64,000 nt of DNA from Amphibalanus amphitrite. Lineage: Eukaryota; Arthropoda; Thecostraca; Balanomorpha; Balanidae. The stretch is from assembly GCF_019059575.1 (NCBI RefSeq), contig NW_024881973.1:186001-250000 (forward strand), given 5' to 3'. The notes beneath the pieces were generated by a model. The model was not told the DNA's origin. It made no database searches and saw only the letters and a program-made list of their open reading frames with translations. Numbering within the stretch: the stretch's first letter is position 1; the number at the start of each line of letters is the position of its first letter. The position numbers and the translations under genes are program-made. Below, piece after piece: positions 1-64,000 of this stretch.

Positions 1-266
1 TGTGACATCTCCTCTGGCAGTGAGGGCGTTGCGAAGTTGCGACATCTGAAGACCGTGCAGAGTTTCACTTATGACGTCATAGGTCAGTGACCTGACCTGA
101 CCCAAAAATGCGGTTGGTGTCAAAAGATGCGGCTTGGATCAAAGGTCAGGTATGCCAAGCGTCAGCTCTCTATCGCCAGCGTGTTCGGAGCTATCGCGAA
201 AAAAAAAACCCTATGGGGGGGCGGCACCCGCCCCCCCCCCCCCCCCCCTCGGCCGGCGAGGGTTAA
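1..266. mobile_element. Right end of a TTAA-bounded element with a G-run/C-run hairpin (copy E, cut by window start)
   Basis: The end reads GAGGGTTAA, with TTAA at 263-266. Just inside it a 7-base G-run (215-221), a 9-base loop and an 18-base C-run (231-248) can fold into a hairpin. Positions 72-150 carry several TGACCT/AGGTCA half-sites. The same plan (TTAACCCT end, G/C hairpin, TGACC-rich interior) recurs at 15.7, 37.7, 38.6, 45.6 and 63.0 kb. The left end lies outside the window. TTAA targets and CCC-starting termini suggest a piggyBac-like non-autonomous element; Kolobok is the alternative. Confidence 0.6.
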
Positions 267-1091: not shown

Positions 1092-1178
1092 CCTCCCGTC
1101 CCTCCCATCCTCTCCCCGCCGCCTCCTCCCGCCTCCTCCCGTCCCTCCCATCCTCTCCCCTCCGCCTCCTCCCGCGGC
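1092..1178. repeat. Two-copy 45 bp polypyrimidine direct repeat
   Basis: A C/T-rich block beginning CTCCCGTCCCTCCCATCC occurs at 1092 and again 45 bases later at 1137, with only small differences. It is a simple tandem duplication in a strand-asymmetric pyrimidine tract. Confidence 0.7.
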
Positions 1179-2747
1179 CCAGTTTACTGCTCTGACGCCT
1201 CGGCGGCAATCGTGGCGCGCTAGCGGTGACGAGTGACGCGCTCGGTGTGCGCCACACGCCGCCGATCAGCACGCCGTGCCGCGATAGCATCGACTAATTA
1301 TGGTGCGAAGCTGGCGCATGAATTACAAACCGACAGCGGGCGGCGGCGGCGGGAACGGCAGGAAACGGAGCTGATTGGTATCTCTCCGAAGCCGCAGTGG
1401 CCACACAAAGTACCGGCGAGGGCAAACACGGGCCTGATTACTGAGTGAACGGTTTGCCGGTCTCGCGGCGGGGTGCCACGGCAGGATATTTATCGTGTGT
1501 CGTCGGCGAACATAGCCGGGCATGGATGCCGCCCCGTGTCTCAACTGTAACACCCGAACGGCCTCGGATACACACTTTTTAAGGCCGCGCCACACCTGCC
1601 GTGGGATCCAGCACAAAACATACGCCAGACCCGGGACTGAATTGGTTTCTGTTCGATGAGAAAATGCCTGGATTGGCAGCTGAGAATGAAGGGCCGCTTC
1701 GGCACAATATCCCTGGTAAAAGCTTCTGTCTCTGCTCATCAAGGTGAATTGATTCATTTGTGTCTAAGAGCATTGGTGGATCGTATGGAGAAAATACTTT
1801 GCATATTTGTTTTATTGCTGTTTTCATACCCACGTTTAATTTTCTTCATAATAATCCCAACTTTTTGTCACCTTGTTCGCTTATTATTTAGCGCCAACCC
1901 TTTGTTTTCTAGCCAGCCTCATCCTATCAAATATCGCGTGACAACTAGCAATTAAGAGACCAATAAAATGACAAGAATGCGTACCGTCCGGCGAAGATGA
2001 CGCGGGATTTGGAAAGGGTTGACAATCGACATGGTGGGGAGGCGCTGGCTCGTGTTAATTAGTGCTATCACAGGGCGTTTAGTCCAGATTTCCTCCAATC
2101 CGTCACCTTTGAGTGCGGGCACACGATGCAGTGATAACATCGGGTGGATGATAGATTCGGCCTGTCCCCGCCAGGCGTCGTTCAGTTGATGACAATGATA
2201 GTGACGAAAATCGAAAGTGTCAGGGACGGAAATCCTTCGGTGTAGGCCCCAACTTCGCTCAACATTTTTCGTAAACCAATTGGTCACGACGCATAATGCG
2301 TATTGGCCTGCCATGTTCCACAAAAAGCATACGCTGCATAAGCAAGGATGATATCTGGAATCACATTCCTGTTTCCATTTCAGTATGAACCCATCATTCA
2401 GACAGCCAACCCTAACCGTTCCCACTTTACCAGTGCTGCTGTCATTCAGCGTCAAATAATCAGCATCTCCATCTCACCAGTCAAACACCGAGACCTCGAC
2501 TGCTAACGATTGATCACACTCAGCTGGAGGTCCGCGTTAGAGAGTCATCCACTGTATGCCGAGTGCATACTGACTGCAGCGTGAACACCGGGCGCTGAAC
2601 ACACTGAGCAGTGAGCACAGTAGCTCGTGTTGATTGCATCGGAACGCCTCTGATCTGCATCGGACCGAGGCTGATCGGCGGCACAGAACCAGGAAGGAGG
2701 GACGGGCGCAGCGATCACTCATGACTCGCCAGTCACCGCCGCTGCTA

Positions 2748-2775
2748 CCGCCGCCGCCGCCGCCGCCGCCGCCGC
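2748..2775. repeat. (CCG)n microsatellite
   Basis: About nine uninterrupted CCG/CGC triplets are visible. The short frame that crosses them reads as poly-proline but has no other coding support. Confidence 0.85.
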
Positions 2776-3524
2776 TCGCCTACCCAGACCCATCATCACC
2801 CAGCAGTACGGGCCGTGCTAATTTTATGGCTATTGACTACTGGTCGGTAAAGAAGGCACCCCTGGACGCTCAGAGGCGTGGCGGTGCTTCAATGACAGCC
2901 GGGGGCGCTCCGCGGCCGTCAGTGCAGTCAATGCATTATCGGTGCCCTCTCTCTAGGCCGTGCACGTAGTCGGAATAGGTTCCGCCGCCGGTGCCTCCAC
3001 AGGATTGTCCATATAACCGACTCAACTGATAATTAGCGGCAACTGTTTATGTTTCTCGTTGTGGTAATAGATGAAATAACTCAACGGCAAAAATGACGTG
3101 AAATTTACCATAAGCAGTCGTAAATGCACATCTTAGAAACTAGCTGCTTTCGGCAGCGTCAAGTTCGGATGAATGGCGATTTTTCTGGCCATATGCACTT
3201 TAAAATGAGCATTAAATGTAGTGTTTAGCTCCATGAATCTGCATAAATTCAGTAACGACACAACCAGAACGTGCCAACCAGTGGAGGCTTATTCAGAAGC
3301 CCATGAACACGCTAATGCTGATTTGAACTTCTAGTCGATCTTGTTCAATCAGCGAGAAGCGCGTGCTCATATTAAAAGTGTCATGTTCTGACATAGGACG
3401 AGCAACGCATGTTGATGCAGATGAATATCAATTAGTTTTATCAATGCCTCGAGGCAAACTATTAACTGCTGCAAGGGTCTGCAAAGAGGTCTGGATTTTC
3501 CTTTTCTTTTTTTGCCTGTTATTA

Positions 3525-11500: not shown

Positions 11501-12284
11501 GCGGTCCTCTCAGCGATGGTGCTTGTAGGGGTGTTAGAGAGTGGTTAAAGACCTCCCGCAGAGGTACCGAAGCGTGGTCAGGTGCGCTGAAATAGTTCGG
11601 AATTGACTGGAACAATTTTGTGACGGGGTATTGTCTGAAGAGCATTCCGTTAGTTGAAACGGTAATGGTATAAGTGGTAGGTTAGAGGAGGCTGAAGTGG
11701 TCTCCCATAACCAATGGAATGCGGACGAGCATGCCAAATGCCAAGGCGACCTTACATTCAAAGCGGCGTCAAGTACCCGAGAGACATGGCTAGCATCATT
11801 TGCATAGACCCAACATTTCATTTAGAAAGAAGTAGGAGAAGTGAGCTTGGTGTCCTCGAGTCGTAAAGTCGACTGCAATTTTCAAACCAGTGATGTGCAT
11901 GTGAAGAAATGATAGCTATATGCACAAGCTTTACTCCTTACTCACTGAACAGACCAGAGCTGACCTGAAGAGCTGACCAGCGCGTGCAACCACTCCGACT
12001 CTGTCTCGCCTCGCGGCAGAGCGGCCCATCCGGTTGCCGACGCGGCAGCTCTTCATTTGGCCGGTATCGCCGACGGGCTCCGATTGGACCGTCCTTATCG
12101 GAAATTGGCGGATCGCCGTTACGAATGGCCGGCTCGGCCCACTGGCATCTCGGAGCGCCAACGCTAATAGCTGTCACGACCACGCAAAGTAGCTAAATTG
12201 CGCCGCAATCTGACCAATGTCGCCACCGTGCTGAGAGAACAAAGCTTTTATGTCGATGTAATTTGCCGCCGTGTGACTTCGATA
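8576..12284. other. Intergenic, no gene recognised
   Basis: CpG-rich patches at 9290-9600, 9880-10270 and 11980-12180 produce long overlapping frames on several strands without recognisable domains. A G-run lies at about 10878-10889. I see no paired termini or tandem repeats. Confidence 0.55.
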
Positions 12285-12286
12285 TA

Positions 12287-13642
12287 CAGGGTGTCCCATA
12301 AGTTCCTTCTCACCTAAATTTTTCTTTTAAAGGCTCCCTTATTTAAAGCCACGCTTAATTTATTTTGTAACTTAGCTTTTGGGGTTGCTATGGTAACTGT
12401 GAATATGCTCCACGGTAACTAATTCGTCTAGACAAAATATTTTTTGCTAGAGAGTTCACTTCCTGTAGAGACGGCTTACGCCGCAACATAGAGGTCTCCG
12501 ATACGGGTACGTCTCGGTATTTAGTCCGCACGTGGGCCATTTGCGACGGTTGAGGGTGATTGAGGCATCCAGTCTGTAGCCAATGTCTGTCGCTAACTGG
12601 ACGCACAGTCAGCAAGTGACACCGATGATTTGTCGGGAGTCAATCGCTGCAAGTTTATGCTCTTTTTTGTCAGCTCTCAGGAGTGTGCCATGTGGTCAAA
12701 ACTGTGTGGCGCCAAAGTGGCCGTCAAAAAGGTCTTAGCGTTAGAAAGTTGGTAAGCAGGCTTTTCAGAATGGATTACCAGCTGTCTAAGAGTATTATTT
12801 CGGAGTACATAACTCACGGTCACTTGGGCTTAAACTTAACGGAGGACGCAAAACAGTCGAAAATGTCTTAAAATGGCCAAACATTTGTTTCGTTATGCCT
12901 GAGGCTAAAAAACTGGAGGGCCGATGACATCAATGTGGTCATCTGGACTACCTAGTCCGTGTTCGAGATAAAACAACCGTCCAAACCCCAAAACGGTCCC
13001 ATATGGGCGACGGAAAAGGCCTTCGTGTCATCCCGCTTTAATCCTATGCAAAAGGCCAGGGTCATGGTAATGTGGGGTAATATGCGTCCAGACGCTGAGC
13101 AGGTTGCGATTGATACTCCAGAAACAGTGTTGGGACGCAGAATGCTTCTCCAAGAAGATCTAGGAGGAGTTTCAGCCTTCTAGCTCAACTCGAACCGCAA
13201 GTATGAACACATTTTTGGAGGAGAAAATGGCATTCGGGAGGTCGTAGGCCTATCTTCAAGCAAGACAGTGCATCAGTGCAGAGGTCAAGCAAAGCTTGAA
13301 AGCAGTGCCAGGAGACTGTGATAGGCATCTGTGGCAAGATCACATCCCAGGCAACTCATCGGATCCAAATTTCATAAAAATGTGTTGGAAATATTGAAAT
13401 CGAGGCTCGTCGAAGCGAAGCGCTGTTCCAGCCTCGAGGAGCTCACGGCGCATGCCAAGTCAGTCTGGGCTAACTTCAAGCCTGCTATGCTGCCAAACAT
13501 GCCGGTTGGCATGCCGCAGCATGTATTCATGTGTTTGCCTATGAAATGGGGAGCACATTGAGGGGTCATAAACATATCAAAACGCAATGTTCTCTGTTTT
13601 ACATGCAAATGTAAGGTGAGAACGAACTTATGGGACACCCTG
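12287..13642 (+). mobile_element. Mariner/Tc1-like transposon, inactive, with near-perfect terminal inverted repeats
   Basis: The left terminus begins CAGGGTGTCCCATAAGTTC at 12287. The right terminus is its inverse, ending at 13642. The 28 bp terminal repeats differ at one position. TA dinucleotides flank both ends (12285-12286 and 13643-13644), as expected for mariner/Tc1 insertion. The 1.36 kb length suits a full-length element. The internal + strand transposase is broken by stops and frameshifts. Confidence 0.9.
12683..13560 (+). pseudogene. Decayed mariner/Tc1-type transposase
   Basis: Fragments lie in order on the + strand. The first is a helix-turn-helix-like piece with GLSVRKL (about 12733-12755). 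Next comes a catalytic-core-like piece with VIWT (about 12930) followed by VFEIKQ and ARVMVMWGNM (about 12960-13085). The last is a degenerate C-terminal piece with SDPNFIK (about 13360), where an intact mariner protein has the PDLNPxD-type motif. Several stops and frame changes interrupt it, so it cannot encode a functional enzyme. The family call rests on these motifs plus the TA-flanked termini. Confidence 0.7.
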
Positions 13643-13917
13643 TATGTAACCTCTGTGGCTGATAGCCCAGGCAACCAAAGGTAATAGGATGACATATGAG
13701 TCTTATTTACAATAGGTATAGCTAATTAGGGGGTTATTCATCGGTAGATTATAAATCAGAATGACAGAGCCCTAAAGAAATGATGCATTTATTGAATGAG
13801 TGGCCCTTGTCGCAAAATAATAAAAAGGATTCCATCCTCGCATAAATCACTTAGCACAAGGTTTGGAACACTGCCTTATTTCACATTGACGCTGAGGTTA
13901 TATGAGTTGGTTATGAG

Positions 13918-15185: not shown

Positions 15186-18100
15186 ATGGAAGTCCGATCT
15201 GTTCTGCTGAAATCATTTCACTTGGATCCAAGTTTTTCTCTGATGACAGTGCGATCAGCCGTTCTCAGCATGGAATTGTTCAACCTGCTTGATATTCACG
15301 GTACATCAGCGATTAACGGTAAGTGCATACTGCATGCGGAATGCCTACCAGGAAGGGTGGGGCCTCAAAAGACTGAGAAATCGATCATCATTCTAATTTA
15401 GCCGAGAGGCTGGCAATCATCGAATATCATCGGCTGGTGTTGTGCCAAGGGATTGAGCATGAAAAATCAGCGTACATTTACAAAACTATGATGAACATAA
15501 GCGCACGTTGATAACAAATGCACATCACCGAGCATATGATCATTTGTGTTCACAACGCAGACGCACATGCACAATTTGAAAAATCGAGCTTATGGCTCAG
15601 CCGGCTGGTTTCAGTCTCGCGATCAAACGTTGCTCACGTTCTCACATTCTCCTACATACAGGGTGATTTTATTACTTGTTAACCCTATTAGTGGCAGGCT
15701 CCTGGCTACCCCATATTAGTGGCAGGGGGGGGGGGGCTGTTTACGACCCCCCCTTGATATCTCGAGATCTAACCGGCCGATTTTCAAAATTCAAACGGCA
15801 TTCGATTTGGCTCAACGAGATCTACATTTCTAAAAAAAAAAAATTAAAAATGTCAATAGGGGGGTAGAGGGGGGTAAAAACGGGCAAATTGCAGATACAT
15901 TTTAGACTGTTTATCACGGCCAGGTTTCTGAACCAATCTTAACGCAACTTTTGCCGATCGATAGAGAATGAACCAGGAATTCACATGGATCCTAAAAATA
16001 TGCATTTTCAAAAATCATAGGCGGATACAGATCATTGAGATTGGGGGTACACAAAAAGTATGGTAAATAAGGTTTTTGTTGGTACTGTTTCTAAAAAGGG
16101 TGGCAATGGTCTTGTTATGTTACAATTTTCTTATGAGAGAACGACTAAAATTGTATTGGTCATGCATAGGCGGTGTCAGGGAACCTATGTTGGGAGGTAA
16201 AAAATAACCCCCCTTTTTGGACGCCTGGATCCGCCTATTATAGCAAAAACGTGTCAAAAGAGGATGCACAATAACTTTGTATATGTTATCACATGATACC
16301 TTTCATTCACTGTTCGTAAAACTGGTGCAGCATCGTGATCTTCGCCCAAATGACTCGCTTCACGAATAGGACCCCCAATTCCCAGTGCTCTGGAGCCGCC
16401 CCTGGTAAAGTTATGAACTTCAAATTTTCAGGGAATGTGCCCAAATTAGTTTTAGGAAAAGTCAGAAAATTTCAGCATCGTAGCTTCAGCGGTTTCGGAG
16501 ATATTCCCGAAAAACCTGAGGGGTGGATAAAAACAACCCCCCCCCTGCCACTAATAGGGTTAAAAAGTAATGAGGTCTAGTGGGGTTAAAATGCAAATAT
16601 ATCTTGCAAAATTATATGCCAGGATGACGAGCATTCTGGGACATTTTGATTTCCTTGATTTCATGCAGACACAATGTGAAGGAACGTCCATCGTGTATTT
16701 TACTTGTGCTTGAAGTTACCCCCTCTCTCACCGACACGAATCAGCCCGCCTGAGCACGTGTTGAACAGCACCATGGACTCCCATACTCATTAGGCGGACT
16801 GAAAAGGCTCCTATCGCCCATTTTCAGCTCTGCCAGATATCTCCACTGTTTTCTTGTTATATCTGCCATAGCTGGGTCCAAAAACTACACCTTTTTAGGC
16901 GCAATTTCAAAAATTTAAAGACCAAATTCAAAAAGTTTACATTCAAAATGCACGTGAACGTTTTGAATTTGGTCTTTAACTTTTTGAAATTGCGCCTAAA
17001 ATGCTGTAGAAGCTTAGGGAGGGCAGGTCGAGGATTTTGATACTGGCGGCCCTGGTGGTGTCTGATTCGCTGTTTTTCTTTCTCCCTGAAGACTGATTCT
17101 TCAAAAGCTGCTCATACGCCAGATGGACCGTTTGAAGATTATTTATGACTACAAGCTTGTTCATGCGTTATTTAACGTCTTTCTGAGGTATCTCCTTGAT
17201 CATCGTATGCTTCGAACTGCCTCAATGCTTCAAAATCATCGTTTTGTGTCGTCCCTTACTGAACGGCGGTGGACCATGCGTGCCCGATTGGTGGGACATT
17301 TTCAGGCTCCATTGGGGCCGAGGCCGTCGGTTAAAAAAAGGGACAAATGATGACACCATACATAATGTCCCAGATTTATCTATCACGTGCATTGCTTTTT
17401 TGCACGCGATTTTTCGATTTAGGGGCCACCATTGACGTTTACTTTTTAACAGTTAAAAAAAATCACCCTGTATGTGTAACCACCCTGTATGTATGTGTAT
17501 GTGTAAACTCAACTATAATCGCATTTTTTAACCAAACTGCAAAAGTCAAACCCTAGTCATACACTTTCTCTTAATTCCGAATGTGATGACAGAAGTAGGT
17601 ACGACTGGTCAGCTAAAACGTGTGACCTATACCCCCTCCCTTGTGCCCCCAGACGTCATATTCTGCGCTTGGCTGCGCAGCTGCACAAACCTGAAGGGCC
17701 ACCAGGTATACGACCTGTTTGAACTGTTCGACGTCGACCGATCCGGAGAGATCGATTTCGACGAGTTCTACCTGGTCATCGCCATACTGGTCGCCGTCAA
17801 AGTATGCAAAATGTGGGACAGGAGTTGATAAGCGTGATGTGAAACCTATAAGATGACGGACCAATATTATAGCTAATTTGTAATGCATTAGCTCGACTTA
17901 CCAGGAAAGACAAGCCACATTTATTATCATTATGCTGCATTGTGCACGATACGGCTCGACTATAAAACAACTTTTGGACAGAGATACTCGTCAGCCTTGC
18001 ACTAAAGAGTTTATCCGTAAACACGACGATGCTTATCAGCTCTTGATACAAAGGACTTCGCTGCCTATTACAGATAAACGTATCTCACAAAACAACACAA

Positions 18101-19779: not shown

Positions 19780-32411
<12,632 letters not shown>

Positions 32412-35094: not shown

Positions 35095-35612
35095 CACGGG
35101 GGCCATGGCCTTGGGGCCTCTGATAGCCTGTGGCCCCTAGTCGCCTAGGGGGCCCTGGTCAGTGGTCAAATGGGGGGCCTCTGGTCGCATGAGGCCCCTG
35201 ATCGACTGGAGGCCCCTAGTCGCCTAGGGGGCCCTGATAGCTGGGGGCCTGGTCGTATGGGCCCCTGATAGTCTGTGGCCCCTAGTCGCATGGGGGGCCT
35301 CTGGTCGCATGAGGCCCCTGATCGACTAGGGGCCCCTAGTCGTCCAGGGGGCCCCTGATCGCCTGAGGGCCGCTGGTCACCTAGAGGGCCCCTGGTCGCA
35401 TGGGGCCCCCTGGTCGCCTGGGGCCCCTGATCGCTTTGGGGGCCTGATCGCATTGGCCCTTGGTCGCCTGGAGGGCCCTGGTCGCCTGGGGCCCCTAGTC
35501 ATCTGGGGGACCTGGTCGACTGGGGGGCCCCTGGTCTCCCGAGCCCCCTGGTCGCCTAGGGGGCTTAGTCGTCCGGGCTCCCCTGGTCGCCTGGGGCCCC
35601 TGGTCGTCTGAA
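35095..35612. repeat. Degenerate 16-17 bp GC-rich minisatellite
   Basis: About thirty diverged copies of a unit like GGCCCCTGGTCGCCTGG fill this half-kilobase. Frames with repeating Arg-Pro-Gly-Asp patterns across it are repeat artefacts. Confidence 0.85.
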
Positions 35613-36289
35613 AGAACACTTATCACCTGATTGATCCCAAATCTCTGAGTGGCTACTGGCTACTGGATATATGTAGAGACTGGAGTAGGCACTCATCTGA
35701 AGGAGCCAATATCTTTCACGGTGCCGGAGATATCACAGAAAAACAAAAAGGCTAAACTGAATATCCCCCAACCTTGGCCCCAAAGGCGTCATTGGCTAAC
35801 ACAGGGATGTGGGTCGATTTGCAATCGCATTTCCTCCTAAGTCCTATTCCTCCAATGAATACAGGGTGTCCCAGAATTACCCAAGCATTCATAGACCCAG
35901 GAACAGGGGGGGGGGGGGCAGCGGGGGCGCTTGCCCCCCCCCAACTTGAGAGCCGAGGGGGCGGCGCCTCCCCAACATTAAGGCAGCGATAAAGGATCTT
36001 TCATCCATTTTCCGGACTTCTTTCCTTCTTGTTTCCTTTTATCATCTAAACATCAACACATGGCATTTTCTTTGCCATCTGAATGGTTTCTGATGATACA
36101 GTATCGATTTGACAACTTCTGCTATTGTCATCCCGCTTTGGTTTGGGCCTGACCTTGGCCAAAAGTTTGGCAGGCCGGATTTTATCTATTTTACTGGACC
36201 ATTTGAGTCAACTTTGAGAATTACATAACTTACAACGGTGGTAAAATCGTTGCTATAGGCATGACACAGTTTACCCGCTCCGGGTGTGA

Positions 36290-37300
36290 GAGAGGGGTGT
36301 GGGGCAATGAGTGCACTGACGTGGCGCCCTCGGAAGGCCGGTATGGGATTCAAGCTCAGCGACACTAAGGGTTTGAGTGGTGCCTTCGGTTATCGGTAGC
36401 GCCGTCAGAATCACCGGCGAAGGGCCCTCAGAGCCGCCGGTAAGGGCCTTTAGAGGCACTGGTGTGGGGCCGTCATGCAGGTGCCGGTGTGGGCGCTCGC
36501 CCAGAGATTAGTGTGAGATCAGATAGAGTCTGATCAGAGATCAGAGATAGTGTGATTCTCTCAGAGGCGCCGGTGAGGGTCCTTACAGGCTTTGCTGTGG
36601 GCCCTCATAGACGCTGGTGTGGAGCCGTTACAGACGGGTGTGGGGCCTTTAGAGCTGCTGACGCGAACCCTCTACAAGGCGGCAGGGGGTTCTCAGTGAT
36701 CGGCAAGGGGCCCTTAGGCCGGCAGAAGTAGTCCTGTGGGGTCCTTAGAGACCGGCATGGTACTGTCAGACGCCGTTGGTGCCCTCAGAGTCAGTAGTCA
36801 CCGGTGTGGGACCCTCAAAAGTCACCAGTGGGTGGCCTTTAGATGCGCAGGTGCTGACTGTTGGGTCCTCAGAGCCGCCGATATAGGGCTTTAATATAAG
36901 GCACTGGTGTAGGCACTCAGAGTTGCGGGTGTGAAACCCTCAGAGACACCGGTGTGGGCCCTCATAGGCGCCGATGAGGGCCCCCACAGTTGCCGTTATG
37001 GGACCCTCAGAAAAATAAGTGTGAGACCATCACAGGCGGGAAATGCCCCTAGAACTGGCCTCTCATAGGCCGGTAAGAACTCTCAGAGGCCAATAATGGG
37101 CCTTTGGGGACCACCGAGGGGCCCTTAAAAGCCGCAATAGGCCCTCAGAAGCCGGCGTGGGGCCCTTATGGAGATCTTAGTGTGGCTATTTAGGGCCCAC
37201 GAGGTGCTCTAACGAGCCCCATGGGACCCTTATGAGTCCAAATGTGGCCATTGTTAACCCTCAGCGGTCAAATGGCGCCGCAGGGCCCCTCGGACCCGAG
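36290..37300. repeat. Highly degenerate ~25-30 bp minisatellite
   Basis: A unit resembling GGCCCTCAGAGGCGCCGGTG recurs irregularly for a kilobase with heavy divergence. It may share ancestry with the 35.1-35.6 kb array, but the unit differs. Confidence 0.65.
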
Positions 37301-37654: not shown

Positions 37655-38611
37655 TTAACCCTAGAACGCCTAGGGGGGGGGGGTTGTATCAACCCCCCCC
37701 CCCCTGAGGTTTTTTCGAAGTGCACGCTAAACGGCTTGTCGTAGCGGGCTGAAATTTTCAATACCCTCTGGGGCAACCTTTGCGCATCTTTTGCCGAAAA
37801 AAAATTGATCGGGTCATGTCAGGTCACGGAGTTATGACGTCATAAGAGGTACAGCCTCCGGCCGACAGTTACCAAACGTGTGCGCCGAATCCCTAGGTTT
37901 TCTGCCGGTGATACCCACATTGTTTGATGGATCATGATGAAACTTCCCATGCATGTTGGGGCAAGCATTGGCTATCGTGTGGTGCAAGAAAATTGACCGG
38001 GTCAGGTCAGGTCACGGAGTTATGACGTCACAAGAGGAACAGCGTCCGGTACTATTTTTGAAAAGCGCCCGAACCACTATTTTGCTAATTCTTGTCACCT
38101 CAATGGGAATATGCAGCAATATTAGCTTCTATAGGGAGCAAATGGACCTCCCAAATCCAAAAATACAATCAGATTTCAAAAATTTAAATTTTGATTTTTC
38201 GAATTTCTGCCGCCGACTGTGACCTTGCCGACTTCCGGCGCTCCCAACGCGCCATTTTTAGAGCTAGGGAAACGAAATACATACCAAACGATAGAGAATT
38301 GATCAAGGAACACGATAGTGAAGGTTTCAAGTCGATATCTCCCACCGTTTTGCCGCCATCGCCGCCGAAAGTTGAAAAAAGTCTATTTTTCCGAAAATTT
38401 GACCTTTGACCGGTCAAAAGTAGGTCAAATGTTGACCTAGGACCAAAAAGTATACCACCAATCGCGAGATCTCGTTGAGAGCAATCCGTTGGTTTTTTCC
38501 GCTAAGCTCTACGACCTTCCGTTTCGAAACGCCAGGGGGGGGGGTCGTAACAACCCCCCCCCCCCCTGGTCGTTCGTGTTATGAGAAATGGCCTGGTCGT
38601 GCGAGGGTTAA
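37655..38611. mobile_element. TTAA-bounded G-hairpin element (copy A)
   Basis: The left end TTAACCCTAGAACGCCTAGG is followed by a G-run, a loop and a C-run (about 37670-37703). The right end inverted is TTAACCCTCGCACGACCAGG, and inside it is a second G-run/loop/C-run hairpin (38534-38567). It is about 0.95 kb without an ORF of note. The interior carries a direct repeat of about 45 bp (37804 and 37991) with GGTCACGGAGTTATGACGTC at its centre, plus many TGACC motifs. Its right TTAA (38608-38611) is also the left TTAA of the next copy. Confidence 0.82.
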
Positions 38612-40878
38612 CCCTCGCCCGCACATGGGGGGGGGTTGCCACCCCCCCCCCCAGGTAGTCTTTCTGCTCTGCACTCAACATTTTTAGAGCTAGAAGGCTG
38701 ATTTTTCGTATAGCTGCTCCTCTATCCTTTCTTGATGTCCACTGAAAATTTCAAGTTTCTGTGGTTTTTGGTTTCGGAGATATGACCTTGTTTTTCAGGT
38801 CATGTCATGACCCAAATGGCCAATTCTCAACATCTTGCGTTGGCTATGGGCCTTGTGAGCTTTTAACACCTTGATTTCGGCCTTTTATGCCAATCCTACC
38901 TCCCACCTATCATGAAACATATTGTTCGACGATGTACAGAGGTCAAGGTCAGGGTCAAGGTCAACCTAGGTCATCTAAGATAATTGCGTTTTAGGCAAGC
39001 TGAATTTACTTTTTTTGAAATTTTTTGACTACATTTTTGGTAAAAGCTTCTCAGATCATGATTTCATGTAATATGGACACATAAACAATCGGTGCACTCA
39101 TCAGTATACACACAGACACACACAGACATACAAACACATATTATTTGTTACATATTTAGAATTTTGAAGGAGTGTGCAGCAGAGTTCACTGTGCCGATCA
39201 CAAAACTCATTCGACTTTCGCTGAGCCAGGGCACCTTTCCTAGAGTCTGGAAACGCGCGTACGTTACCCCGGTTCACAAAAAGGGTGACCGCAAAAATCC
39301 CAGCAACTATCGCCCGGTTTCCCTCTTGCCGATTTGTTCCAAAATATGTGAGCGCATCATATGTGACCAAGTGATTCAACACGTGTCGCCCGTTTTATCC
39401 TCAGCACAGCACGGTTTTTTAGCAGGACGTTCATGCGAGACCAATCTTACCTGTCTTGTCGATCAGCTGTGGCGTTCGATAGCCGAGGGGGCTCAGACTG
39501 ACGTAGTTTATACGGACTATTCGTCGGCTTTTACTAGTGTTGACCACTCTCTGCTTTTACATAAGCTACAGAAGTCATACCATTTGTCTGGTGCCGCTCT
39601 CAATTGGTTCCGTTCTTACCTGAGTAGGAGAGAGCAGAGTGTAGTGTTGAACGGCAAGTGTTCTGACTGGGTGCGTGTGAAGTCAGGAGTGCCGGAGGGC
39701 AGCATATGTGGGCCAATCCTGTTCGTCTTATTTTGCAACGACGCCCCTCTCGACATATCTTCTGGGTGCCTGATGTATGCAGATGATCTGAAATTGTACC
39801 GTCGCATTCGAACTGCTAGTGACTCTTTGGCTCTTCAAGCAGACGTAGATAAATTGTGTGTTTGGTCAGGTACGTGGAAGTTAGCTCTGAACCCATCTAA
39901 ATGCAAAAGTATCACGTTCACACTTCGTGGAAAGCCTGTAGATACAACCTACCACATTGACGGTACTGCACTGGAACGTGTGAGCCAGATGCGTGATCTT
40001 GGTGTTCTGCTTGACTCAAAGTTGACATTCGGTCCCCACATTGATGAACTTGTAAGAAAGGTAAACCGCGCCTTGGGCATGTACTTGAGGTCGCTTCAGA
40101 GTTATCGAGCTCCCACCGGCCGCAGGCTACCGCCAGGACCTATAATGACAAGTTTCAATGCCCACATTCGTGCAATCATGGAATTCGGTTGCGTGATATG
40201 GGGCGGAGCAGCAAAAACTCATATTGCGAGATTGGAGCGTATCCAACACAAGTTCCTGATGTGGTTGGGCAGGCATTCAAACAGTCCATGTGCTTCTCTT
40301 GACTATACTGATCTGCTTCGTCATTTTGGTGTCTTGCGAATTGACCAGCGGCTTGTTCTGAATGACTTCTTCGTGCAGAACGTGTTCACCGGCAGGATCG
40401 ACTCCGGTGACATTCTTGCGATGTTTTCACTCGCTGTACCATCGCGAACTCGTTCCAAGCCTGTGCTGTATGTGCCTGCAGCAAGGGTTGACACAATCAG
40501 AAACGGTTTGTTCTGTCGCTTGCCACGAGCTGTGAACAGTAGGGTGGTCCATTTTTCCAAAGTTTCTAGGATCTTTCGGGCCGGGTCGGAATTCTTGTCG
40601 ATACCATGATACAAGGTTGTGTGCAAAATTTTATTCCGATCGGATAAATTTATCCCGTCCCGCAAAGCGACCAAAGTTTTCCCTATGTTAACAATAACGG
40701 GGTGAGCGATAATACGAATTCTCCCACTCAGTCCACATTTTTTGCTCAATACACACTGGCAGTCACTAAAAAAAGAACAGCAAAGGAGAGAAACACATCA
40801 GAGTGGAATAGGCATCGGTGAAAATAGCATGTCTGGTATAGATACAAATACAAAATCCACCGTGCGTGCCACCATGTA

Positions 40879-41071
40879 CTATTGGTCTCAATATAAGGGC
40901 CCAGGCGACCTGTAGTTTTAATGCGGTGAATACCCTTACCCTCGCCACAGCTCGGGCCGAGTGCATCCCTCCTCCCACCCAGCGCAACCCCCACTCGAGT
41001 TGTGGCGAGGGTGAGGGTATTCACCGTATCCGAACTACAGGTCGCCTGGGGCCTTATCTTGAGACCAATAG
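40879..41071. repeat. Long inverted repeat inside the DNA transposon
   Basis: Arms of about 75 bp, starting CTATTGGTCTCAATATAAGG at 40879 and ending with its inverse at 41071, flank a spacer of about 40 bp. Blocks GGCGACCTGTAGTT and ACCCTTACCCTCGCCACA are conserved between arms. It may be a remnant of another small nested element or a transposon-internal hairpin. Confidence 0.8.
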
Positions 41072-41159
41072 CACCAATATCCCTCTCGGATGCAACGCCC
41101 GGTGCAGTGGTGCTCCTCGACCTGAAGGAAGTGCTTTCACTATTCCTTGCCGTGCGCGA

Positions 41160-42100
41160 TGGCGCTAAAAATTTCCCACTGATAAGGGCAACAGTGCAAT
41201 ACCCAGCTCTCGCAAGTCGTTCACCACCCGTATATGTGCCGGGCGCCGATGAGCAGTGGTCAAGTCGTCATTGTCTGACCACTCGGCCGAGTCGACATTG
41301 AGGAAATCGTGGCTGGCCCCGAGGGATGTACCGACCGACAGATGCAAACGACGCCAGCGAGCGCTGCCCCACTGCGTCGAGGGCGACTTCGGCGCGGCAG
41401 GGTTCGTCTCTCTCAGACGCTGCTGCATGGAGGTGGCGATCGCCTCTTTTCCTCGACCGTCGTCCCGTCGTTGAAGAAGGAGAGACCGATGGTCTTGCCC
41501 ATCACCTTGCCCGGTTACCGTCCGATATCTGTGTGGTAAGCGGTAGGAGCCTTTGCGGAGGGCGATGTCAGTTCACGATGCTGAGGTCGATCAGCGGGCA
41601 GACAGCCACGGTGCTACTTACCTTGTGACGATGAAGGTGGTGAACCGGACCATCGTCCTCTTCTCGTGCTCGGTGAGCGCGAGCTGACAGAAGAGTGTTC
41701 TTGAGAGTGTTCTTGACTTGAGAAATCTTACGTGTTGATCACAGGCCATCCAACGAGCACGTTGTAAGGCAACCGGTTTCAGGATGCTCGCTTCCAAGTC
41801 ACCGTCCATCACGACGGTGGTGAAGTACACCACATTGCGGTAGTTATCACGGGGCAGCTGCTTCTTCAGCAATGCGCGTCAGGTGACGATCATCTTGTCG
41901 GCGAAGTCGATTAAGTCATTGAGCGGTTTGAACGACACTCGGCCCGTGAGCTGCCACCACTTTACAAACCGCTTGAATGACGGGATCTCGGGAGTTCAGG
42001 GCCGGAAGACGGATGGTGTGAAAAGTGAAAAGATGCGTCATGCATTTCGTAAGAGGCTGTTTCATCCAGCAAGGATTTGCTTCTGTCTGCCAAAGCAAGC
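41160..42100 (-). pseudogene. Decayed transposon-encoded protein (arthropod TE-associated family, transposase suspected)
   Basis: Read on the minus strand, fragments appear in order: SSGPEL then SFKRFVKWWQLTG (about 42010-41940), an in-frame TGA near 41880, PRDNYRN (about 41855) and QRARWMA (about 41755). LFCQLALTEHEK and FTTFIV follow (about 41690-41620), then VVNDLRELGIAL near 41230-41195. I recall this order (a GPE..LFKRF segment, PRDDYRE, HHARWMAK, then VVND.AERG.AL) from uncharacterised proteins linked to mobile elements in arthropod genomes. It has at least one stop and frame changes. Enclosure within terminal inverted repeats suggests it was the mobilising enzyme. That function is inferred. 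Confidence 0.6.
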
Positions 42101-43171
42101 CACATTTCGGTGATTGAGCGTGTTCCTTTTCCAGCTTCAGCGGCCATCCCAGACGCAGGCAAATTCATAACTAGTGTAATGCATTCGCACCTCCTGGCAT
42201 ACAGGGCCTTGCTCCTGGCACTGAGAACAGGAACTGTAACAGGAACTATGGATTATCGTTCCTGCCTGTGGCTGATATGAAGACTAGATCTATCATTGAG
42301 AAGGCTAGAGAGGGTTGGTGCGTTGAGCAGGCAAGCTCTTTGGTAGATAGCAGCTGGCGCGACTGGGCAATGTTGGAAGACAAGTATTCGCCCTATACTG
42401 AAGACTGGTACGTATCATGGAAACTTTGACCGCTTTGCGGGACGGGAAAAAATCATCCGATCTTAATATAATTTTGCACAGAAGCTTGTGCTATAGTATC
42501 GACAAGAATTCCGACCCGGCCCGATGAATCTGACGAACTTTATTTTTTACCATGTAAATGTGGACCACCCTAGTGAACAGTCTATGTGAGAAACGGCCCA
42601 CTGCTGACCTGTTCGGATCCCGGGCGGCGTTTAGAAGTCAGGTGAAGGCATTCGTATCGAGCCTGTAACCTTATTTATACATGTGTTAGTTAGACATAGG
42701 TAGGTGTGTGAAAATGTGACGTATATTTATGCTTGTGACTCCGTCTGTAAATGGGGTGCACCTGTGGACGGTATATTTCAATACACAATACACAATTATT
42801 GACCTTGACCTAACTTGACCTGAGATGACCTCAGCAGCAAAAACCTGGTCGGGTAGTGTGACAAAGAGGTTCTAGCTGGCTTGGCACCAGAAAACGGCAT
42901 CGTCATCGGTATATGACAAGCAGCGCGCTTGATATCCAACGGTGACCTAAAACAGCAACATTTTTTAGTTTGACCTGACCTGGAAGGTCAATGACTGACC
43001 TGAGAAGGTAAAACTGGGTATCGTTGGATTTGTCTCTTCCCAAAGAATCTTTTTGGTCTTTACCGCTAAGCTCTATCTCCAACAGGAACGAAATGGCGCG
43101 GGGGGGGGGTGGCAACCCCCCCCCCATGTGCGTTCTAGGATGGGAAAATGGCATGTGCGGGCGAGGGTTAA

Positions 43172-45612
43172 GCAAAAAATATTTTTAATTTCCAATTTTC
43201 CACATTTTCTCAAGGCTTAGACCGTTACAGAGACCGTTTTAATTGACTTTGATGAAGTTGAACGCGAGAAATCACAACCAAATGCTACATTAGGTTGTAA
43301 AGAACTGAATTGCGTTTTCCCACACACGTGGCGTTTTCTCACCTACGTCTGCAGGAGAGACCGGACCCACTATGCCCCCCCCCCCCACCATCGAAAGGTT
43401 CTGTATGACTCCCGGGGGCCCCCGGGTGACCTGGGGGCCCCTTCGAAAGCAGGTGGCCCCCTCCTGGGCGAAATCCTGGGTACGTGCCTGCTGCTGTCCG
43501 GCGGTCCATGGCGAGGTCACCCCAAATGACTGGTGTCAGATCAGCTGTCAATGGAGTGCCCACCTGGGTGCTGACTGCTGACGGTTCCTCTGCGTTCCAG
43601 GTGTGACCCCGCGGCCACGTGCATCCACCACCGAATCCAGTGCTGGTCATGGAGTACTTGTATGACGTCCTTTACTTGCGCTGACTTGATTGGTATTGGT
43701 AGATTGGTAGGTACAGTTTGAAATGAGCGAACTGGACATTCATGGTAAATAAAGATAAGTGCATTAGTCCATTAGACATATATCTCATCGAGATATTCTT
43801 AAAAACGACTTTGAGCAAAACTAGACAGCTAAACACAGTTTTGACGTCCCCGATTGTTTATTTATCACATTTTGTCGTTCAAGAAATTGCGAAATGCGTG
43901 CTATGCAAGCCATGCTTAAAATAATTTGTTGTAGTAAGGCGTATTTTAAACGGAATAATACAACCAATGACAACACTTATGGCCGTTATTGACACGGAGA
44001 CTGTGACGGCATACCAATGCATTGGTATTGACTCGATCTTCTTATGTATTGTTCCTCCTTCTCAAGTCGCAACAAACCGACGCTGCATTCCATTGGAAAG
44101 AATGTGCATGATAGATGAATGCGATGCATTACCTTTTCATCGGAATTGTGTCCAGGTCAGCGGATTGGAAGTCGTTCGTTATGATGAGTGGAAAACTGCC
44201 GCCGTTGCGTACTCAGCTCAGTACGTGTAAACTGATGCACCGTTGCGAGGGAAGGAAGCTCGGCATTGTGCAACAATTTGCAGGTGCCGTAAACTGCGAC
44301 GAATTCCCTATTTAGTCCCGCTTGAGTCCGTACCAAGTCCAAGGGGTTTGCTGCACCGGTGCCAGTTGTCACTGATTCGAGAGGAATTGTTTCCTCGGCT
44401 GCTTTCAGTCAGAGATGGCGAGTTTTACTGCATATTAGCCAAATCGCGCGTTGCAAAGATGGCAGGCCTGCTTTTCAGAGCCGGTTGAAATTAAGTAGCA
44501 ACACTCTCTGAAGTATGATAACAATTTTATGGTTGGCCTGTTACTCCTCTGGTGCCCCGATGTTGATAATAAAACACCAATAACAGCCCACTCCGGTGAC
44601 GTAAAATACCAGTCGGCACCGTCGCCCGTAAACCCCGATCTCAGTTCGTCGGACGGCATTGCACGGTACGATTTGGGCCATTCTTGTCCTCACATGACCA
44701 TTGACAGCCGTCAATAGGTGGGGCACGATGTGCTGCGACGGCAGCCATTGGGGCCATTCTCTGGTTTGTTGCTCGGTGCTGAGCTCAGGCGGCTGTTTCG
44801 CTCGGGACTTATCGTAATCGGCCATCGGGTGGCTGTTGATGGCGCCATTCAGACGCTATGTCGCCGAGACGGCGCGTCTCCCGTCACCGACTGAGATGGT
44901 ACCGCCCCAGACGGCATCGGCGAAAAGACGACCGGAAGGACGGCCTTGTTTGGGTGGAGTTGGGAACCATGCACGGACTGTCCGATAGTTTGGAAGGCCT
45001 TTTGTGTGGCTGGCCGCTGGTAGCAGTCGCCGGGCACTGGGTGCTATTTGAATATTTTATTTTTTAGTTGCGAGAAAGCAATTTACAGGCACCAAGTCGC
45101 AATTAAAACTGCAGTTAGAATGGCACAGTGGCTGGGAGTTCTGGGAGCGCGAACTTTTCAGATGGGTTCCGAGTTGAGACTGCCGCCTAATTGGGTTTTG
45201 AAGTTGGACCAGACGGGTTTTGGTTTATTAATGTGAATATGTGCAAAACGGCACACCTAACTTATCAGGACACGGTGACTTTTGTACCAATTCACTCCAC
45301 CGAGCAAAGACGCTTCTTGTGTTACTCGCATAGCAACACCTAGCCGTGCATTAAATGAGTGCATTCCGTTCATTTGTGATTTATATCTACCATCTTCTGT
45401 CATTAATCGATGTTTATCATTGAAGTATCTGTAAAAGGTATCTCTTGGAGATGTTTTTTCACCCTCATAGAATACACAATGAACAGTAGCTCAAGTTGTC
45501 TACCTTTAATGTTAACTGTATTCGAATTTCAATCTCAACTGTGGCTCATTCAACAACGGCACTACACCACTGAAGGCACAATTTCAGTCGGACAGATAGC
45601 TTCGCGCGCCCC
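43172..45612. other. No gene recognised
   Basis: At 43373-43387 a C-run is followed by GGGGGCCCCCGGG-type sequence, perhaps another degraded element end. The rest is unremarkable mixed-composition sequence with short, unsupported frames. Confidence 0.5.
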
Positions 45613-46812
45613 TTAACCTTCCAGGCGGTGGGGGGGGCATTTTTTTGCCCCCCCCTTTAGTTTTTTCGATATATCTCGAGAACCGCTGCGCCGATCGTCA
45701 CCAAACTTTCAGTACCCTCCGGGGAGCAGCTAGCGCACATGGTGACCAAAAATTTTTCCAAAGGCTATGATAGGTTGGCCGCTAATGACGTCAGAGTGAC
45801 GTCATTTTTGCTATTTTCGACCCAAAAAAAGGTTTCGCGGGAAGAGCTGTCAGGCCTACAGCTTTAGAGATACAGAAAAATGTGTTAGACATAAAAGGTG
45901 TGAAATTAAAAGGGCTACAAAACTGCTATTTCGGTTTTTCGATTTTTTTGGATTTTGACCCCCAAAAATCAAAAAATAGATTTTTTGAATATAATAGCCA
46001 AAAAATCCAAGAAGTTTTTTGAATTTCGAAAAAAAACCGGAATATATGTGATAGCCCCAACCGCCTTCTATCTACATACCAAATTTGAGATCGATACCTC
46101 TTTTTTTGGCCAAGTTATAGCGAAAAAACTGTTCAAAATTGATGACGTCAAATTTTCAAACTCAATTTTTAGCAATTCTAGACCTCGTAGCGCAAAACAA
46201 AGACCACCATTAAACTCCCCGTGACGAGCTGCATCGAATCGATACCCATTTTATGCAAAAATATCAACTTTGAAATTTGACCTTTTTTGACCTGACCTTG
46301 ACCTGACCTCCACCAGAAAGTGACCTAAACCGTACCTGATGGTCTTATAACCAACACCATTGAGTTGGAAATGAAAAATTGGCCATAAAACATGCATCGC
46401 ATAACCTTAGTAAAGTTGGGCTCATGTGGTGACCCTTGGTGACCTTTGGTGACCTGACCTGTGACCTGACCTGGTATGACCAGTGACCTCTAATAGCAAC
46501 ATATGTACTAGACAACTGACGCCTTATCGCTGATTTTCGATAAAATGCGTTTTACTCGGTGTTATAGCGCTTTCCCTAGAAGCCCCGTGAACGGTGAAAC
46601 ATTTTATCTTTGACCTGACCTGTGACGTCATCGGTGACCCCGAGGTCAATGAAATTTGGTTTCCCTCGACAAATTTGACAGGGCTATCGAACGCCGTTTG
46701 AATTTTTCGGATCCGTCCAGTAGTTTCGGAGATACGGGGGGGGGGCAAAAAAGTGCCCCCCCCCCCCCACCGCGCGGAAGGTGGCTGGTAGGCCCACCGC
46801 CTGCCGGGTTAA
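45613..46812. mobile_element. TTAA-bounded G-hairpin element (copy C)
   Basis: The left end TTAACCTTCCAGGCGGTGGG runs into a G-run, the loop CATTTTTTTG and a C-run (45630-45656). The right end inverted is TTAACCCGGCAGGCGGTGGG, with a matching hairpin just inside (G-run, AAAAAAG loop, C-run; 46736-46770). Right-end sequence again repeats the terminal motif. The left interior (TTTTTTCGATATATCTCGAG, then CTTTCAGTACCCTCCGGGG) is homologous to copy A. Positions 46260-46640 hold more than a dozen TGACC/GGTCA units. It is 1.2 kb without a supported ORF. Confidence 0.82.
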
Positions 46813-59461: not shown

Positions 59462-59884
59462 GAGGGGAGGGGAAGGGGAGAAAAAGGGTAGCGGCTGACG
59501 GTATTTCATCTGCATTCCTGTATGCCGGCGGGTCGGTCCCTGATGTGGTGGCTCATTGGACGGTGTCCTCTGCCCACTCCGCTGACAATGACCCTGACCC
59601 GGGAGGACCGGCACGCACGCCGCTGGTGTGCCGGCATTGTCTCGCCGGCGTCACATTGCACATCATACCCGATTACATTGCCGCCCCGCCATAGACGGTA
59701 TCTGACCTCTGACCTTCGGAGTGCGGTGGCGCGGTCCCCGGTGCAGTCAGTGGTGGATGGAGCTGGTTTTCTGGGGTAGATGATGAGAACAAAAAGAATA
59801 CGGCGGGCGCTATTTGTTTTGTACTGGGATGCAACTTAAACTGGTAAACCTACAACAATTTTTCAGTTATATTGGACAGGTATG
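59462..59884. other. No gene recognised
   Basis: Short frames only. Sequence becomes AT-rich towards the inverted repeat that follows. Confidence 0.5.
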
Positions 59885-60079
59885 TAGTAAAGAGCCAGTA
59901 GTCTACGAATATATTAAAAAACAATTAGAAATGAATAAGCGGACCGGTTTCGTCTATCAGACTTCTTCAGCGCTTTTTCAAAAACGTTTTTGAATTGTTT
60001 CTAATTGTTTCTACAATTTCTAATTGTAAACATTTCTAATTGTTTTTTAATATATTCGTAGACTACTGGCTCTTTACTA
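59885..60079. repeat. Perfect 49 bp inverted repeat with 97 bp spacer
   Basis: The arm TAGTAAAGAGCCAGTAGTCT... at 59885-59933 has an exact inverse complement at 60031-60079. The spacer contains the ribozyme-like motif at 59937-59975 and repeated CTAATTGTTTCT strings. Identical arms imply recent origin or maintenance by gene conversion. Confidence 0.93.
59937..59975 (-). ncRNA. Hammerhead-ribozyme-like motif (type I layout), possibly Penelope-derived
   Basis: On the minus strand the order is AAGCG, CTGAAGA, A, a small stem (GTCT-GAT-AGAC), GAAAC, CG, GTC, CGCTT. AAGCG and CGCTT pair as stem I. CTGAAGA and GAAA match the conserved hammerhead core (CUGANGA and GAAA). GTC sits at the expected cleavage position with a minimal stem III, a layout reported for Penelope-like retroelements. 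One extra A before stem II departs from the consensus, so activity is doubtful. Confidence 0.35.
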
Positions 60080-60702
60080 TATAAACAACTTTTCAATCAT
60101 TGTTTTGTTTTTCATTGTTAATGGATATTACCTAATTATCGAAATTATCCAGTGTGCCAATGCAGATGTCAAGGCTGTATGTATTTGTTGCGCCTAAGGC
60201 GAACTATATTCGTTGTAATTAGATACAAGTTTCATTCTTGAAAGCAATATCAAGCAATATGGCAGGGTTTTGTCGGTTTTTACGTCGGTGACTGGTCGTT
60301 TGGCAACATGCTCCACCTCATGTGAATTATTCGATGCAGTTCGATGCTGTTTAATTTTTGTTTTTGCATTTCCTGCTCCGATCTTTTAACCCTTTATATC
60401 TGTGACAACTTTGTTTAAGCGACTCTACATAACGTTTAGTGTCGTGGCTACCTCAGTGACCCCCATACCATTGGCCTGATGCTGGTGGCTGCGGCCTCAG
60501 GGCTGTAAACAAACTACTCGTCCAGCTGCTGTTGTTTTGTCGGCGACTGCGGGGGCGGCGGCGGCAGCTCCTGGTAGGAACTCCACCGCTCCTACCCAGT
60601 GACCTGTTCCCACACGGTGTCACAGCTGACTCTGGTATGCTAATGGGCCGACGGGCCTGTCGGCGGCCGGCGCGGTGGGCGCGGCCGGCGCCGGTCAGGG
60701 AG

Positions 60703-62996: not shown

Positions 62997-64000
62997 TTAA
63001 CCTGCGCCCCAGTGGCGATCTCAGCCAACTTCGCCCTAGTGGGGGGGGGGGGGGCACATGTTACCACCCACCTCTAACTCAAAAACTAAGAGGGCTAGAA
63101 AGACGCGGTAAAAAGCAGTCGATAGCTCTTAATGCGTACGTTTGAAAGTATTTCGGTCATTTTTCACCTTAGAGCAATATTGGGGTCACCAGAGGTCATC
63201 AAAGGTCGAAATTTGCCAATTGTCATTATATTTTTCAGAAAACATGCCGCTATCGGAACTATGGTAGCTAGAAAAACGCATGGAAAAGCAATCGATAGCT
63301 TTTGAACTCTTCTTTTGATAAGGTCATCATCAAAATTGACCTCAGGTCAACGGTTTAGCCTCCAGAGGGCAAAACTCCAAAAATAGCTGTTTTTACGAAA
63401 AGTGTTTTTCGACAATAACTTTCGACTAAAAAAAGCCACGACATTTCTATTGCCAGAATCGTGTTCCCCTCGCCGAGACGCGTCGAATGAACTATAATTT
63501 GACCTTGAAAGGTCAACTTGAAAATTTGACCTCAAGTCAAGGTCATGACCTGACCGGAAAAGGTCATGTTGCATATCAGTCGATGCGTCTCAACAAGACA
63601 AACACATTGAGACCATCCCCAGCGTTCTATCTCTTTCCAATCGCGAGTTATTGGCAAAAAACTGTTTGTAGCCTCAAATGACCTCGGATGACCTTTTTAG
63701 AGGCTATCAGCAAAAATGACGCCTTGGTCATCACGAGTGGTCTAAATCATTGTGATTCTGAAATATTTGGACTGTTCCTATGCGTACACACGGATCTAGA
63801 GGCATTTTCATTTTTCTGCATTGACTTGTAATGGAAAGGTCACGCCACTGACCTGACCTTAGGTCACGGATATAAAAAATCCGAGATATACAAATTGTAG
63901 GCGTCCATAACAGCATGCAATCCACCAAGTTTAAAACCCTTCTGACAAACACTGCAGGCTGGAAATGATTGCAAACTTTTTTAGGCTTGGTCAGTTAACT
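62997..64000. mobile_element. TTAA-bounded G-hairpin element (copy D, cut by window end)
   Basis: The sequence starts TTAACCTGCGCCCCAGTGGC at 62997 and has a 14-base G-run (about 63041-63054) followed by CACATGTTACCACCCACC. As in the other copies, the interior is rich in TGACC/GGTCA units (63190-63350, 63500-63570 and 63840-63870). The right end lies beyond the window, so the pairing of ends cannot be shown. Confidence 0.6.

Follow-up and report, generated by a model that had tools for sequence, protein, structure and literature searches.

What do opposed runs of G and C do near the tips of a transposable element? The question is raised by a 64,000-nucleotide stretch of the genome of the barnacle Amphibalanus amphitrite (contig NW_024881973.1, positions 186,001 to 250,000, assembly GCF_019059575.1; hereafter, the window), which holds a family of TTAA-bounded elements with a poly(G)-loop-poly(C) hairpin close to each end. 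We consider it very probable that the window copies are non-autonomous elements of the piggyBac superfamily in which the palindrome for a transposase dimer is built on G/C runs. The elements fall into a large set of sister subfamilies whose interiors are related in some cases at least. What appears to be new here is the G/C-run palindrome within the piggyBac end plan; the plan itself is already known. At least 16 sister subfamilies, which differ in motif and palindrome, preserve its asymmetry between left end (LE) and right end (RE), and a single genome supplies end matches by the tens of thousands. This provides a natural data set in which the parts fixed by mechanism (a displacement of 26-28 bp, the symmetry, and a repeated inner motif) can be told from the letters that are free to change. 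As transposon ends, homopolymeric G/C palindromes also have practical relevance to genome stability and repeat annotation.

The hairpin ends are far more frequent than expected. In the window, TTAACC(C/T) followed by at least six G, a loop and at least six C was found at eight ends, against none in 40 dinucleotide shuffles. Eight of the nine Gn-loop-Cn hairpins with runs of at least six lie no more than 65 bp inside a TTAACC(C/T) end (mean for random placement 0.15, maximum 3 in 5000), which rules out general genomic G/C runs as their source. TTAACCC...G-run ends were collected genome-wide, a check proposed in the initial annotation, in a search of 807.55 Mb in 2644 contigs. A loose pattern (TTAACCC with seven G 12-41 bases on) gave 42,435 forward matches against 641 for the reversed control, and a strict pattern, with G and C runs of at least seven, gave 7459 LE-type and 6291 RE-type forward matches against reversed controls of 0 and 1. 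For patterns with runs we used the forward counts, the reverse count being inflated by single runs that yield several matches. Shuffles and reversed-pattern controls together rule out a chance origin of the ends. If each end stood for one full element, about 42,000 elements of about 1.1 kb would amount to some 46 Mb, near 6% of the assembly. In one subfamily, 5677 exact 19-nt termini comprised 3328 that lead into eight or more consecutive G (a count that includes the motif's own two G), 1030 with the exact RE tip, and 1319 unclassified; in this subfamily, the one tested, the absence of hairpins from most copies that would have refuted the initial annotation is not seen.

The two ends of an element are unlike. 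In the complete elements examined, the LE consists of TTAA, a motif of 13-15 bp and the palindrome; the RE consists of TTAA, the same 13-15 bp motif, a stretch closing in a second copy of the motif's inner part, and then the palindrome, which is displaced further into the element. The short terminal inverted repeat starts with CC(C/T), and its fourth base is often G. The window contains the following copies, whose boundaries had been annotated exactly to the base:

1..266, minus strand: truncated at the window edge, with its LE at 266; loop CGGGTGCCG; subfamily CCCTCGCCGGCCGA
15679..16563, minus strand: complete element, 885 bp; subfamily CCCTATTAGTGGCA; G run from bp 43 in the RE (left side) and from bp 15 in the LE (right side); LE hairpin decayed in part; displacement 28
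37655..38611, plus strand: complete element, 957 bp; LE CCCTAGAACGCCTA + G11 TTGTATCAA C12; RE CCCTCGCACGACCAGG...; displacement 27
38608..38611, no strand: single TTAA common to two adjoining elements
38608..43171, plus strand: complete element, now 4564 bp; LE CCCTCGCCCGCACAT + G9 TTGCCA C11; RE loop identical; displacement 27
45613..46812, plus strand: complete element, 1200 bp; LE CCTTCCAGGCGGT + G8 CATTTTTTTG C8; displacement 27
62997..64000, minus strand: truncated at the window edge, with its RE at 62997; G14 run without its C run, which is lost; subfamily CGCCCCAGTGG

Parts of the initial description need qualification. Not every end starts with CCC: in 45613-46812 the LE, and at 62997 the RE, starts with CCT. 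Nor is the G-run/loop/C-run hairpin intact at 62997 or at the LE of 15679-16563. The copy at 38608-43171 is complete in its boundaries, but it owes its length to a long interspersed nuclear element (LINE), itself split by a DNA transposon, that enlarged an element of about 0.9 kb (original size judged by eye); a LINE reverse transcriptase match lies at 39062-40609. The DNA transposon within the LINE, at 40532-42581, has 121-bp inverted arms (83%) and starts with TAGGGTGGTCCA. An 8-bp direct repeat, GTGAACAG, bounds it at 40532-40539 and 42574-42581 (by eye), which suggests a hAT-like insertion.

Complete copies are mostly 0.9-1.2 kb long. One LE and one RE were found in each of the 11 complete elements in the window and in positions 1-200000 of a second contig, C1 (573, 885, 957, 1009, 1033, 1184, 1195, 1196, 1200, 1201 and 4564 bp, the last enlarged by the insertions described); in two of these the outer motif ends in five G, and they were re-measured as LE plus RE. 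Among the 71 LE and 96 RE ends listed on C1, convergent neighbours less than 1.5 kb apart were LE plus RE in 29 of 29 cases, spanning 914-1198 bp (eight non-convergent neighbours were left out of the count), and at distances of 2.7 and 3.4 kb there were two convergent RE/RE pairs, each joining different subfamilies, which we read as ends of different elements. For one subfamily, with 100 LE and 30 RE listed, all 23 pairs were LE plus RE over 1189-1206 bp, in addition to one neighbour pair sharing a TTAA; a second set of 100 listed places yielded 19 elements of 1191-1206 bp, along with three longer combinations in which a nearer end is passed over. The sets behind these counts (11 elements, 29 neighbours, 23 pairs) overlap. 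Repetition of the terminal motif in the right end, initially noted as frequent, is the rule in the elements examined: all 11 elements and all 29 convergent neighbour pairs are LE plus RE.

The geometry of the ends is fixed while their sequence is not. We compared 16 subfamilies represented by one LE and one RE each among the strict-pattern matches listed, leaving out subfamilies with a single end listed. The G run starts at bp 14-16 of the LE and at bp 40-43 of the RE in all 16, and the RE palindrome lies 26-28 bp further in, again in 16 of 16, with a best-match displacement of 26 in four subfamilies, 27 in nine and 28 in three. The nine nucleotides before the run agree between LE and RE at 7.5 of 9 positions within a subfamily and at 3.4 of 9 between subfamilies, and 0 of 20,000 re-pairings were as good; this test leans towards agreement, the ends having been matched up either on their tip sequence or because they bound the same element. 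Repeated on the 11 physical elements, where there is no pairing choice, it gave 7.2 of 9 against 3.0 of 9, with 0 of 20,000 re-pairings. Displacement was 27-28 in nine of the 11; it was 23 and 25 in C1:5072-6080 and C1:92782-93977, in which the run or its border is mutated. Agreement between LE and RE motifs within, not between, subfamilies indicates that the three motif copies of an element change together across subfamilies.

The symmetry of the palindrome is likewise kept while its letters change. Among the matches listed, the first three inner positions flanking the loop pair in 173 of 208 cases at 71 LE places and in 153 of 196 at 70 RE places. Over the 54 distinct loop strings listed, 97 of 149 inner positions pair; re-dealing the 3' parts lowers the share to 34%, and none of 2000 re-dealings was as good, a figure that is no probability, the strings being related. 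This count of every listed place supersedes an earlier one on 39 strings chosen by hand, in which 81 of 112 positions were paired, against 39%. The LE and RE loops of a subfamily share their first three letters in 15 of 16 pairs. A binding site for a dimer and a cruciform alike predict that symmetry is kept as the letters change.

Insertion into TTAA is documented by an empty site. When the flanks of C1:55424-56624 were joined at one TTAA, 40 of 40 scored repeat copies (285 candidates) matched across the junction with 96-99% identity; the three empty copies that were read have a single TTAA at the junction, and the occupied site has one on each side. TTAA duplication is thus established for one insertion, C1:55424-56624. 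Empty sites with a single TTAA, which the initial annotation would have sought in other individuals, are present elsewhere in the same genome, in copies of the repeat that holds this element; that repeat may be mariner-like, to judge by its look. One TTAA is common to neighbouring elements at three places (window 38608-38611, C1:6077-6080 and, on a further contig, C5:162847-162850), the simple reading being that an element inserted into the TTAA of an existing copy.

These features correspond closely to a known end plan. According to a cryo-electron microscopy study, LE35 and RE63 are sufficient ends for the piggyBac of Trichoplusia ni (T. ni), in which the cysteine-rich domain (CRD) binds the palindrome as a dimer and the LE/RE asymmetry is termed 'enigmatic' (PMC7351741). 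The barnacle elements share with T. ni piggyBac the TTAA target, a short terminal motif followed by a palindrome (at about bp 17-35 of the T. ni LE), and the displacement of the RE palindrome behind a duplicated motif (the T. ni RE is 28 bp longer) (PMC7351741). Unlike T. ni piggyBac, they lack a transposase gene (in the seven elements measured, the longest stop-to-stop frame has 110 codons), and their palindrome sets a G run, starting at bp 14-16, against a C run, the inner bases differing from subfamily to subfamily. The piggyBat element of Myotis lucifugus is described as having a short motif and, 3 bp on, an imperfect palindrome to which a CRD dimer binds and whose sequence shows no relation to the piggyBac palindrome (PMC11707139); the superfamily can thus accommodate a changed palindrome. 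The barnacle module resembles that of piggyBat in its order, short motif then palindrome, but piggyBat carries the module three times on its LE and, by the same account, no such palindrome on its RE (PMC11707139). A third comparison is offered by the CMITEs of Acropora corals, piggyBac-derived miniature inverted-repeat transposable elements (MITEs), which are also non-autonomous, use TTAA, occur as neighbouring copies and fall into subfamilies with different termini and related interiors, the interiors being the more conserved (PMC2872659). CMITEs differ in their length of about 100 bp and their estimated copy number of about 1600 in A. millepora (PMC2872659), and the strings 'palindrom' and 'hairpin' are absent from the text of that paper.

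A literature search, with subscription journals mostly outside it, found no description of G/C-run palindromes in piggyBac-type elements, and a named Repbase or Dfam consensus may exist; a search by the terminal letters returned nothing on transposons, judged by titles and abstract starts. The initial annotation knew of no described family with exactly this plan. The plan is that of T. ni piggyBac, and it is the version with a G/C-run palindrome that is undescribed in the literature searched. The same annotation's suggestion of piggyBac-like mobilisation, drawn from TTAA and CCC, is strongly supported by the empty-site TTAA, the CC(C/T) termini, the asymmetry of LE35/RE63 type and the many piggyBac transposases in the genome.

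We propose that a piggyBac transposase encoded elsewhere in the genome recognises a module composed of the inner terminal repeat and the adjoining palindrome. The LE would offer one such module at its tip, and the RE would offer a copy of the motif at its tip and another copy, 26-28 bp deeper, that adjoins the palindrome, in the manner of T. ni LE35 and RE63. To judge from its position and symmetry, the palindrome (Gn-x-loop-x'-Cn) would most likely be bound by a dimer of the transposase CRD. Excision at TTAA would then proceed by the hairpin-intermediate route of piggyBac, presumably without leaving a scar, and would be followed by insertion at another TTAA.

Potential sources of such a transposase are numerous. 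The piggyBac DDE profile, PF13843, gave 116 scored hits from 232 candidates, many of them in open frames of 550-700 codons and several with identical scores. Six frames, from loci L029-L034, all matched PF13843 when compared with Pfam, and one transposase frame compared with PDB matched piggyBat (E 3e-25) and T. ni piggyBac (E 4e-13). Among the 31 loci inspected, 11 represent six autonomous families with a readable LE, and in five of the six a palindrome with an arm of at least 5 starts at bp 13-20 (arms of 10, 8, 6, 5 and 5; one family has none), compared with 5.1% of random 60-mers (1.8% for an arm of at least 6). These LE palindromes have no G runs. At L032, a second copy of the motif end and palindrome lies inverted inside the element. 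One piggyBac transposase family, with termini CCTCTAGCGACCCA/CCTCCAGCGACCCA, is present as separate insertions at loci L034 and L035; at both (L034:3150-3225 and L035:3102-3177) a perfect 16-bp palindrome, GTATAGATATCTATAC, directly follows the LE motif, and partial copies of motif and palindrome lie further inside. About 100 bp past the transposon end in the one (L034:3333) and about 70 bp in the other (L035:3248) is an RE of subfamily CGCCCCAGTGG, pointing away from the transposase. The former is a 45-bp RE tip (L034:3333-3377) that ends exactly at the expected start of the G run, where unrelated sequence adjoins it, possibly as the result of a hairpin-associated deletion. At L058, a G11...C9 hairpin lies near the transposase, with no TTAA seen at the right distance. 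The partner transposase may be among the remaining 85 hits, may be extinct, or may act across unlike palindromes.

Several observations weigh against a piggyBac-type element with a protein-bound G/C palindrome. None of the 31 loci inspected out of 116 hits (11 with flanks and 20 upstream pieces, the latter seen on one side, and many of the 31 showing no end of any kind) has a transposase with G/C-hairpin ends of its own, and no palindrome with an arm of at least 6 was found at the RE of the autonomous L031 element or at either end of that at L029. Some 160 bp inward from a hairpin RE of subfamily CCCGGCACCGCC (position 203) begins the L029 piggyBac (363-3043, termini CCCATTAGTGCCCA), which looks recent; seen from one side, it is probably a nested insertion. 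The RE palindromes are often imperfect, with 65 of 101 positions paired over distinct strings, and just 7 of the 16 LE/RE pairs, each from a single subfamily, have identical loops. Run lengths of 7-18 are odd for a protein site unless the inner bases alone count. Many termini read CCCG, which differs from the CC(C/T)T quoted for termini in PMC2872659 and from the four 5' motifs given for animal piggyBacs in a survey that left MITEs out (PMC10813416). Finally, the flanks of C1:64576-65759 are unique and gave no empty site, so that joined flanks revealed empty sites in one of two cases. The case of L029 and the imperfect match between LE and RE loops lower our confidence slightly.

The alternative that survives best, which we nevertheless regard as improbable, keeps the elements in the piggyBac group and gives the G/C hairpin a role in excision, protection or silencing through the DNA structure that it forms (a cruciform, G-quadruplex or i-motif), rather than as a site for a protein dimer. 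Pairing that is kept while sequence changes among subfamilies would fit such a role, but sites for protein dimers have the same symmetry. A stem of 7-18 G facing C would be unusually stable, and the RE tip at L034 stops exactly where the run should start, as if the hairpin had caused the deletion; against this, the position of the palindrome and its LE/RE displacement equal those of the CRD palindrome of piggyBac, and several autonomous piggyBacs in this genome have palindromes in the same place without G runs. Several copies in C1:1-200000 whose runs have decayed are still in place, which shows just that persistence needs no hairpin. The cruciform, G-quadruplex, i-motif, silencing and self-protection roles raised in the initial annotation thus find no specific support, because a dimer-binding palindrome explains position and symmetry and the autonomous palindromes do without G runs. 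Cruciform, G-quadruplex or silencing roles are not needed to explain the hairpin. A more elaborate idea, and no likelier, is that the transposase or a host factor reads the shape of the hairpin and not its sequence, leaving the letters free as long as they pair, and that palindrome-guided copying changes the three motif copies (LE tip, RE tip and RE inner) together, generating new specificities around an interior that stays where it is.

Judged on target site and ends, with no search aimed at a Kolobok transposase, assignment to Kolobok or another TTAA-target superfamily is very unlikely. TTAA target-site duplication is common to Kolobok, but Kolobok termini are given as 5'-RR and YY-3' (PMC9587614), and the 5'-CC of the barnacle termini speaks against membership; the displaced second motif with its palindrome, moreover, fits piggyBac. 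Least credible of all is an origin of the runs by microsatellite growth or assembly artefact beside an ordinary terminal inverted repeat: run lengths do differ between copies, but in all 16 subfamilies compared the runs keep to two set positions, pairing extends to the bases between them, and the strict pattern is matched 7459 (LE) and 6291 (RE) times forward against 0 and 1 reversed. On the strength of the set positions and these counts we reject an assembly artefact.

Copies of the piggyBac-type elements are similar within subfamilies and, in part, between them. On C1, identity between two copies belonging to one subfamily is 95.8%; between 45613-46812 and C1:92782-93977 it is 93.7%. Between some subfamilies with different ends, interiors are collinear in pairwise comparisons with the low-complexity filter off (E to 2e-26); under the same setting, for example, 534-708 of C1:41753-42947 aligns with 537-707 of 45613-46812 at 74% (E 3e-24). 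In a multiple alignment of seven elements, interior blocks had a mean identity of 0.34-0.50 against 0.32-0.41 when shuffled, a weak excess, so the case for interior kinship rests on the pairwise matches more than on the multiple alignment. Interiors contain arrays of TGACCT/AGGTCA ((TGACC)n) and of TGACGTCA, for instance at window 46260-46640. TGACCT occurs 128 times in ten elements, or 12.3/kb against 2.0/kb across 264 kb (about 6-fold), and TGACGTCA at 1.73/kb against 0.23/kb (about 7.5-fold), the 264 kb including the elements. The TGACCT/AGGTCA arrays may represent candidate half-sites of nuclear-receptor type or a transposase-related signal.

The remainder of the window holds features of other kinds. 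An ATP-synt_ab exon at 24924-25457 is read as vacuolar ATPase. Inverted arms of 61 nt (89% complementary) with a spacer of only 3 nt lie at 16885-17009, and arms of 53 nt (98% complementary) with a spacer of 97 nt at 59881-60083. An element-like unit at 12284-13645, presumably mariner-like from its look, has ends CAGGGTGTCCCATAAGT and 48-nt arms (85%), and its tip resembles that of the repeat hosting the empty site. Directly to the left of the element cluster, degenerate GC-rich tandem repeats, of GGCCCCTGGTCG type and another, occupy 35098-35623 and 36426-37001.

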